A DNA stretch of 64,000 nucleotides, taken from Helicobacter labetoulli. GTDB taxonomy: Bacteria; Campylobacterota; Campylobacteria; Campylobacterales; Helicobacteraceae. Under the pieces are notes generated by a model. It saw only the letters and a list, made by a program, of their open reading frames with translations, had not been told where the DNA came from and did not search any database. This document shows positions 21,058-42,261 of the stretch, piece after piece (the first letter of the stretch is position 1; each line of letters starts with the position of its first letter). The translations under genes and the position numbers were made by a program. The stretch spans positions 1 to 64,000 of the forward strand of contig NZ_QXJF01000007.1 in the NCBI RefSeq assembly GCF_003670275.1, written 5' to 3'.

Positions 21058-21407
21058 TACATTGTGCTTATTATGGAGTTAAGAATCTCACTCTGCACCA
21101 GCATCATATAGCTTATTGTTCCACATACAATGCTAAGTACAGGGATTCTAAAAAGAATATGTATGCTACTTACAATAAATACCGCGATAATCTCATTTAG
21201 TCCATAAGGCATTTGTGAGAAGTTTGTATCCTTCAAGCAATACACAATAAGCATTGCAATAATCGCACTAGGCAGCACTTTGCCCAAAAAGACAATGTAG
21301 CTTGGCGTGGATTTGGCAAAAATAATAAAGGGCAAGAATCTGCTTAGAAAGGTATTTAATGCAATAAGAGCAACAAGCAACATAGAATGATAGACTTCAG
21401 GATTCAA
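21057..21407 (-). CDS. azlD: AzlD-type branched-chain amino acid exporter small subunit
   Basis: This 116-residue protein has about three to four transmembrane helices and the family pattern NTFLSRFLPF followed by LPSAIIAMLIVY. AzlD pairs with AzlC to export branched-chain amino acids or their analogues. It starts 11 bp inside the end of azlC, so the two are co-translated. Confidence 0.87.
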   Translation of the reverse strand: MNPEVYHSMLLVALIALNTFLSRFLPFIIFAKSTPSYIVFLGKVLPSAIIAMLIVYCLKDTNFSQMPYGLNEIIAVFIVSSIHILFRIPVLSIVCGTISYMMLVQSEILNSIISTM

Positions 21408-22086
21408 GAGCGCCTCTCTTTAGTGTGAGAATGATACAGATTCCAACAAGGGCTGGAAGCAAAAAATGCTCTGCTTTAAAAATATACAAACACACAAGAC
21501 TAACAAGAATCCCAATAAGTGCGGGTGTTCTCATTGCTTTGTTTCGCCACTGCTCTATAAAAATCACTACAAAAATCGCACTCATTACAAAATCAAGCCC
21601 CTTTGGTTCAAACTCCACCAAACCCCCTAGAATCGCCCCAAGTGTGCAGCCTATAATCCAATAGCTATGATTAAGTAGAGCGATAAAAAAATCAAACCAA
21701 TGCTTATCAATGTGCGGTTTTGGATTTTTGAGATTAAGCAAGGCAAGGGTTTCATCAGTGAGAGAATAAATCATATAATAAGACTTTTTGCCCATTTGCT
21801 TAAAACGATCTAGCATACTGATGGAATAGAAAATCTGCCTTGCATTAATCATTGAGATAAGCACGAAGCTTTCCCATAGCCCAGCACCACTTGCCATAAG
21901 CCCAACAGCGATAAATTGTGTCGTCCCACCATAAATGACTATTGCCATAATAAATGCCCATAATGCCCCATAACCTGCCTTTTGAAGTAAGATTCCAAAT
22001 ACCATACTCATAAACACATAGCCAAGTAAAATAGGAATAGTATGTGGGAATGCGTCTTTCAACGCAGGCAGGGCATTTTTTGGCAT
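21397..22086 (-). CDS. azlC: AzlC-type branched-chain amino acid exporter large subunit
   Basis: The 229-residue protein begins at ATG 22086, one base after the argS stop; a TTG at 22116 in frame is a weaker choice. It has about six to seven helices with GYVFMSMVFGILLQKAGYG and INARQIFYSISM, hallmarks of the AzlC family. With AzlD it forms a putative amino acid efflux complex. It follows argS directly, perhaps only as a transcriptional passenger. Confidence 0.88.
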   Translation of the reverse strand: MPKNALPALKDAFPHTIPILLGYVFMSMVFGILLQKAGYGALWAFIMAIVIYGGTTQFIAVGLMASGAGLWESFVLISMINARQIFYSISMLDRFKQMGKKSYYMIYSLTDETLALLNLKNPKPHIDKHWFDFFIALLNHSYWIIGCTLGAILGGLVEFEPKGLDFVMSAIFVVIFIEQWRNKAMRTPALIGILVSLVCLYIFKAEHFLLPALVGICIILTLKRGALES

Positions 22087-39617: not shown

Positions 39618-40060
39618 ATGAGCATATTTGCAAGGGTGGCAGTTTGTATAAGTGTGGTGTTTGCATATTCGTATGCCGGAGATGTGAAGTATGCCTCCAA
39701 GGTTAAATCTCTTTATCAAGAGGGGAGTGATAGGGTTGTGGGGAGATTGCTTCCAACAGCTCAAGTGGAGGTGCTAGAGCAAAAGGGCGATAAGGTCTTA
39801 TTAAAGATTGAGGGTTATGCACGGGCTGATAAGCAAGTAGCATTGTATTTTGTCCCTAATCGCAGAATCTTAAATGCGGGATTTTCTAAAAATGCAGATG
39901 TGGAATTTAAGATTACCAAGTCTTTTAAAGAGAGTGAAAGTAAGCAAGAGTGGATAAAAGCCAGTGTCGAGCTATGGAGTGAAAATGTGGATTTGATAGA
40001 GAGTGTGGAGCCACTCTATAAGGAAGCGCAAGAGCTTTTGGAAACTGCTCTGTATGCCAC
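39618..40060 (+). pseudogene. TorC-like c-type cytochrome gene, frameshifted and truncated
   Basis: ATG at 39618 has a strong AAAGGAG site. The protein has a signal peptide (ending YAG, about residue 20) and a domain resembling the haem-site flanking part of TorC-like cytochromes (Cj0265c-type). The haem motif CSVCH is encoded at 40045-40060 but in another frame. CTTTTGG at 40035-40041 needs one more T to join the frames. Right after the haem motif, TMAO-reductase sequence begins, so the cytochrome's C-terminal region is gone. As read, translation runs out of frame and stops at 40133. Confidence 0.75.
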
Positions 40061-41641
40061 GCAAAGCAATATGATAAAGAGTTTATTGAAAACTACACAC
40101 AGGGCTTTGATAAGTTTAGTCAATATCTCTTAGGCAAAAGTGATGGTGTGGTCAAAGATTCTGCGTGGGCATCTAAGATTTGCGGTCTTTCAGCACAAAA
40201 AATAGAATCTTTAGCCAAACTCTTTTTTATAAATCGCACAATGCTAATGTCTGGCTGGGGAATGCAACGCGCTCACCACGGCGAACAAACGCACTGGGCT
40301 TTAGTAACACTTGCGTGTATGATAGGGCAGATTGGTTTGCCCGGCGGCGGATTTGGTTTATCATATCATTACAGTAATGGTGGTTCTCCTACGGCTACGG
40401 CTCCTGTTGTATGTGGCATAAATCTTGGCAATGTCAGTCAGGGTGGTGCGGAGTGGCTTATGCAAGGCAGTGAGAATAACTTTCCCCTAGCACGAATAGC
40501 CGATGCATTGCTGAATCCGGGTAAAAGCATACAGCACAATGGCAAGACAATCACTTATACAGATATTGATTTTATCTATTGGGCTGGTGGGAATCCGCTC
40601 GTGCATCATCAAGATACAAACACTTTCCTTAAAGCGTGGCAAAAGCCTAGAACGATTGTAGTCAATGAGATTTATTGGACGCCAACAGCACGACACGCCG
40701 ATATTGTTATGCCAATTACTACAAGCTATGAACGCAATGACATTTCAATGAGTGGGGACTACTCAAACCTACATATCGTGCCGATGAAACAGCTTGTAGA
40801 AAAGCAGTTTGGAGCCGTAGATGACTATAAAGTCTTTTGTGATTTAGTAAAGGCATTTGGTGTGTATGACAAGTTTAGCGAGAATAAAAGCGAAATGCAG
40901 TGGCTTGAGGAATTTTATAATCAAGCCCTCACGCAATCAAAAGGCTTGTTGTTAGAGCTACCTGATTTTGCGAAGTTTTGGGAGGCAAATGAGCCACTTC
41001 AGTTTGAGATTCCAGTTGAATCTGAAGCATTTGTGCGATATGCGGACTTTAGAGAAGATCCAATTTTAAATCCGCTTGGGACAGATTCTGGCTTGATTGA
41101 GATTTATTCTCAAACGATTGAGAAATATGAGTATAAAGACTGCCCGGCACACCCCACTTGGCTTGAGCCAATAGAATGGCTAGGTATGAAGGATAAGCCA
41201 GCAGAATTTGCACTTATTACCTCTCACCCAGCATTAAGATTGCACTCTCAACTTGCCAATACTTCACTGCGTAAAGAGTATGCTATTGGCGATAAAGAGC
41301 CTATTTGGATTAATCCAAAGGACGCACAGGCTAAGGGCATTAAAACAGGTGATATTGTGAGTGTGAGTAATCAAAGGGGCGAAGTCTTAGCAGGGGCGTT
41401 TGTAACTGATGCAATTAAGCCCGGTGTCGTGCGTTTGTGTGAAGGGGCGTGGTATGATCCACAAGAGCCGGGTAAAGTCGGCAGTATATGTAAAAATGGC
41501 TCACCAAATGTTTTGACTTTAGATATGCCAACCTCTGCTCTTGCTAATGGTAATATCGCACATACAGGACTTGTGAATATCAAAAAATATGAAGGTAGCC
41601 TTGAGCCAATAAGCGTATTCACTCCACCAAAGGGTGCTTAA
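40061..41641 (+). pseudogene. TMAO/DMSO-type molybdopterin oxidoreductase, 5' part deleted
   Basis: From about 40064 the frame encodes YDKEFIENYTQGFDKF, a sequence found in the middle of TorA/BisC/DorA-type reductases, and continues to the normal C-terminus. About 520 residues remain of an enzyme usually near 800-830, so the twin-arginine signal and roughly the first 300 residues are missing. Remaining motifs include GWGMQRAHHGEQ, LPGGGFG, WAGGNPLVHHQD and TARHADIVMP. A GTG at 40148 could start a 497-residue fragment, but without the N-terminal cofactor region it should not be active. Confidence 0.8.
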
Positions 41642-41741: not shown

Positions 41742-41747
41742 TATAAT
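41742..41747 (+). promoter_or_regulatory. -10 box upstream of aroQ
   Basis: TATAAT within TTGGCTATAATAAATG lies 32 bp before the aroQ ATG. AAAGGAG follows as ribosome site. Confidence 0.5.
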
Positions 41748-41778
41748 AAATGTAATTTACAATGCTTAAAGGAGTGAT

Positions 41779-42261
41779 ATGAAAATCTTAGTCATACAAG
41801 GACCAAATCTTAATATATTAGGGCATAGAGAGCCGCATATTTATGGGAATTTCACACTTGATCAGATTCACACAAATCTTCAAAATCAAGCTAAACAAAA
41901 CAACGCAAGTTTGGAGTTTTTCCAAAGTAATTTTGAGGGCGAGATTATTGACAAACTCCAAGAATGTATAGGTGGAGAATATGTCGGCGTGATTATCAAT
42001 CCTGCAGCATTTTCACATACTTCTATTGCCATTGCTGATGCGATAGCAAGCTGTGGTGTGCCTGTGATTGAAGTGCATATCAGTAATATTCACGCACGAG
42101 AGGAGTTTAGGAGCAAAAGCTATACAGGTGCGGTAAGTGCGGGAGTAATTACGGGATTTGGTGCTTTTGGCTATCATTTGGCATTAATGGGAATCTTGCA
42201 AATTGCAAGTGAAGTGCAAGCCTACAAAGCCCAGCAAGCCGCTCAAGCTCAACAAAAATAA
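41779..42261 (+). CDS. aroQ: 3-dehydroquinate dehydratase, type II
   Basis: This 160-residue enzyme makes 3-dehydroshikimate in the shikimate pathway. GPNLNILGHREPHIYG carries the active-site Tyr and Arg region, INPAAFSHTSIAI and EVHISNIHAREEFR hold further catalytic residues. The Ala/Gln-rich tail is longer than the core needs. Its stop overlaps the next start (TAATG), as with H. pylori aroQ-pepQ. Confidence 0.96.
   Translation: MKILVIQGPNLNILGHREPHIYGNFTLDQIHTNLQNQAKQNNASLEFFQSNFEGEIIDKLQECIGGEYVGVIINPAAFSHTSIAIADAIASCGVPVIEVHISNIHAREEFRSKSYTGAVSAGVITGFGAFGYHLALMGILQIASEVQAYKAQQAAQAQQK

Follow-up and report, generated by a model that had tools for sequence, protein, structure and literature searches.

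The locus lies on the forward strand of the window, the 64,000-nucleotide stretch of DNA that was analysed, and belongs to a 126.6-kb contig in a 2.09-Mb assembly of 42 contigs, whose source genome is within, or adjoins, the Helicobacter cinaedi/canicola/magdeburgensis complex (described in PMC9465070). Two gene remnants meet here. The first (39618-40133), found by tblastn and by a weak match to TorC (TIGR02162), derives from a monohaem c-type cytochrome gene (torC/bisB, Cj0265-like), and the second (40064-41641), found with TIGR00509 and Pfam profiles, is the C-terminal part of an N-/S-oxide reductase gene (torA/bisA, Cj0264-like).

Cytochrome remnant and T run

The cytochrome remnant begins with an ATG at 39618 and encodes about 140 N-terminal residues in the original frame, followed by an out-of-frame tail. 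Using tblastn, residues 1-141 of the 197-aa H. cinaedi protein corresponded to window 39618-40040 with 87% identity. The cytochromes of the relatives contain one CXXCH at residue ~144, the single motif that marks a monohaem cytochrome of the Cj0265/BisB type, whereas the window frame 39618-40133 ends without any CXXCH and its product lacks the haem motif. The codons for the motif (CSVCH; TGC TCT GTA TGC CAC) are still present at 40046-40060, starting one base later than the 40045-40060 given in a preliminary description of this DNA, and are now read in the reductase frame only.

Comparison with seven relatives revealed a frameshift at the sequence CTTTTGG (40035-40041), where the T run (40036-40039) counts four T in the window and five in each of the seven relatives carrying the gene. 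Since the run is one T short, the cytochrome frame never arrives at CSVCH, in agreement with the earlier proposal that one added T is needed to reach the haem motif. The possibility that the T run forms a canonical -1 slippery heptamer was rejected by eye, as G CTT TTG is unlike X XXY YYZ.

Deletion junction and reductase remnant

Directly after the haem codons, alignment to the relatives placed a deletion junction with a 2-bp CA microhomology at 40061-40063, which narrows the interval of about 40060-40066 proposed before. Base-by-base alignment gave a missing block of 1066 bp compared to H. cinaedi and 1067 bp compared to H. magdeburgensis, a little less than, but close to, the roughly 1.2 kb first estimated from family lengths, and CA was present at both breakpoints in the alignment with these two species. 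The left and right DNA alignments met at window 40062-40063 in all relatives that carry the pair. The orthologues found intact at this locus align to the window right up to this point from either side, so the junction is not a product of chance, and the suggestion that one large deletion fused the cytochrome and reductase genes is borne out. The missing 1066 bp were found nowhere in the whole assembly, while the identical search recovered the segment in seven relatives. The haem codons are joined in frame to the reductase, as had been described; 1066 leaves a remainder of 1 when divided by 3, which brings the two genes into phase, and an in-phase joining has a chance of 1 in 3.

The T loss lies 22 bp upstream of the junction, and a private T>G change is found 3-5 bp beyond it. 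As the intact operon holds only 13 runs of five or more, the clustering of the T loss and the junction is weak evidence for one combined event. Recombination at an import boundary was discarded as the cause of the junction, given that no step in identity was seen (93.6% in the 250-bp bin of the junction versus 94.4% in the next). The 2-bp microhomology would fit an ordinary illegitimate deletion.

Open from ~40022 to 41641, the reductase frame includes the CSVCH codons, with AKQYDKEFIENYT immediately after them; its first start codon, a GTG at 40148, gives a 497-aa ORF. The loss amounts to ~326 residues when measured on the H. cinaedi reading (856 aa) and to ~299 on the H. magdeburgensis protein (829 aa), consistent with the first 300 or so reported as missing. 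Compared to the intact H. cinaedi protein, which matched TIGR00509 (BisC/TorA subfamily) with 1088 bits over profile positions 1-768, the window fragment reached 752 bits over positions 246-768 of 772 and stayed below the curated cut-off of 1017.55 bits for a full-length match. The Pfam Molybdopterin match of the remnant covers positions 182-352 of 353, and the C-terminal molybdopterin dinucleotide-binding domain (PF01568, Molydop_binding) is kept, with 89.4 bits against a cut-off of 26.8.

By alignment, Ser147, Tyr114, and Trp116 of DMSO reductase (1eu1) correspond to H. cinaedi residues 221, 188, and 190, all within the deletion. Ser147 of the Rhodobacter sphaeroides enzyme is the molybdenum ligand, and Tyr114 and Trp116 are active-site residues. 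The Tat signal is also gone from the window: the relatives begin MSNISRRQILQAMGKGLAVFALVPFVGC, with the Tat-type start RRQILQAMGKGLAVFALVPFVGC, and the Tat motif RRQ and a lipobox-like VGC are also within the lost part. No promoter or terminator signals peculiar to the remnant stood out, the site count being no higher than in shuffles, and searches of plasmid and E. coli collections gave zero matches.

Intact operons in relatives

The comparison with close relatives that the preliminary description had proposed identified an intact cytochrome-reductase operon at the matching position in 7 of 10 genus relatives; in the other 3 no reductase match was obtained, the gene being wholly missing. The intact pair of H. 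cinaedi CCUG 18818 and H. magdeburgensis MIT 96-1001 has, in order, a monohaem cytochrome of 197 aa (Cj0265/BisB-like) and a molybdoenzyme of 829-856 aa that is exported by Tat (Cj0264/BisA/TorA-like). Their reductases are 99% and 98% identical, respectively, in amino acids over the kept fragment, and the orthologues share the upstream neighbourhood of the window, but they retain the 1066 or 1067 bp and the five T that the window has lost. Downstream, the H. cinaedi reductase is followed by a miaB-like gene, whereas aroQ follows in the window.

A synteny break lies at window 41747-41779, directly past the reductase remnant, and the order from reductase to aroQ is common to the window and one other relative, in which about 3.7 kb of extra DNA lies between the two genes. 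Between 30589 and 41747 of the window, tracts that range in length from a few hundred bases up to kilobases differ in their identity to H. cinaedi CCUG 18818, from ~80% to 100%; judged by these alignments, the swings are the pattern of frequent recombination inside the complex.

Outside the genus, Campylobacter jejuni Cj0265c/Cj0264c belongs to the same family and keeps the ancestral order, with a monohaem cytochrome ahead of a Tat-exported bisMGD reductase. The C. jejuni and C. coli orthologues show ~60% identity over the fragment and have a one-CXXCH ORF upstream. In contrast to Cj0265c/Cj0264c, both window genes are truncated and joined; the haem motif has fallen out of frame, and the reductase has had its N-terminal third deleted. 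The Campylobacter concisus BisA/BisB system, a working respiratory pair for methionine sulfoxide and N-/S-oxides, has an 855-aa catalytic subunit and a 189-aa monohaem cytochrome (PMC10653797), sizes similar to those of the intact relatives (829-856 and 197 aa). Unlike this system, the window pair should not work, as predicted from its sequence.

Probable inactivation of the operon and alternative readings

We consider it very probable that, in this one genome of the species, the locus represents a recently inactivated operon of the Cj0265/Cj0264 type (BisB-BisA, also called TorC-TorA), that is, a recent pseudogene. The 1066-bp deletion, with its 2-bp microhomology, took out everything from the C-terminal part of the cytochrome through the intergenic gap to the end of the first third of the reductase; this third included the Tat signal and the region holding the molybdenum ligand. 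One T was lost 22 bp upstream, either separately or in the same event as the deletion, and the order of the lesions cannot be told. Pseudogenisation of the pair looks like ordinary gene loss and not like the birth of a novel fusion enzyme or of a switch.

In the reductase remnant, 5 private substitutions were nonsynonymous, 36 were synonymous, and none created a stop; under neutrality the expected shares would be about 69%, 27%, and 4%, respectively. The ratio of nonsynonymous to synonymous changes resembles those of intact relatives (0:21 and 6:43), and from this likeness and the lack of stops we infer that the loss is recent. Continuing selection on the fragment would be another possible source of the low ratio. 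Two of the private substitutions, Gly453Cys and Ile378Leu (numbered by alignment column), alter sites at which the other seven sequences are all alike.

Because the deletion takes the Tat signal and the equivalent of Ser147, TMAO/DMSO reductase function is predicted to be lost, and such activity is expected neither from the two fragments nor from a chimera made by read-through. The TMAO reductase of C. jejuni requires TatC (PMC4148689), and Cj0265 is the expected electron donor to Cj0264 (PMC10653797); the strain would not be expected to obtain a functional TMAO/DMSO reductase or a haem-bearing partner from this locus. Two further PF00384 proteins are encoded in the genome, NapA (1453 bits, cut-off 904) and a TGA-containing protein that by eye resembles formate dehydrogenase, and thus no gene for a replacement N-/S-oxide reductase was found elsewhere in the genome. 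The literature searched gave no account of a TMAO reductase in H. cinaedi. These results suggest a metabolic difference within opportunistic and animal-associated Helicobacter, in which the strain should not respire TMAO or DMSO and close relatives with the intact operon may do so. They also indicate that the 497-aa ORF should not be named TMAO reductase in annotation, and the locus has little bearing on open questions of mechanism.

It is improbable that the pair is really intact and that the deletion, the missing T, or both are errors of assembly or sequencing. Homopolymer miscounts are a known error type and the lesions are known from the 42-contig assembly alone, but the absence of the missing block from that assembly argues against an artefact, as do the position of the junction deep in its contig, far from the ends, and a microhomology too short for repeat collapse. 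Moreover, when 36 H. cinaedi proteins were mapped to the window, frameshift or deletion breaks were seen in only the cytochrome and the reductase, indicating that homopolymer errors are not common. The remaining flags among the 36 were differences at the ends of proteins or of the window and one in-frame stop, which interrupts a 152-aa ORF on the reverse strand (21060-21515) that is open in H. cinaedi and H. magdeburgensis and is perhaps not a genuine gene.

Still less probable is a cytochrome-reductase chimera expressed now or recently with the T run as an on/off switch, both parts of which had been put forward in the preliminary description. In its favour, the junction keeps the haem motif exactly in phase with the reductase, and the stop-free remnant bears the marks of purifying selection; nevertheless, the in-phase joining is a one-in-three outcome, and the chimera would have a Sec-type cytochrome N-terminus without a Tat signal or molybdenum-ligand region. 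A natural fusion would carry CXXCH and the reductase domains in a single intact ORF that relatives conserve; no relative encodes one, CXXCH was found in 0 of 58 related reductase ORFs, and most of these have a separate upstream cytochrome ORF, so the intact and widespread fused protein for which the relatives were to be inspected was not seen. Phase variation fares no better, since the run has four T here and an invariant five in the seven relatives, and not a long tract with length varying between strains. Known phase-variable tracts are far longer than four T. We give an equally small chance to a sequence of events in which the deletion first gave an expressed in-frame haem-reductase chimera that was later silenced by the T loss, whether because its product was harmful and selected against or because the run acted as a switch. 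The least probable reading, that the C-terminal 497-aa fragment is made from GTG 40148 and keeps some non-catalytic role, would agree with the low ratio and zero stops in the window lineage, but a young loss accounts for these equally well, the fragment has neither a signal peptide nor the molybdenum ligand, and Gly453Cys and Ile378Leu fall at otherwise invariant positions.

Other short related reductase frames, of 179, 119, and 648 aa, were observed in Breoghania, Cupriavidus, and an uncultured Campylobacter, and are possibly further broken copies.
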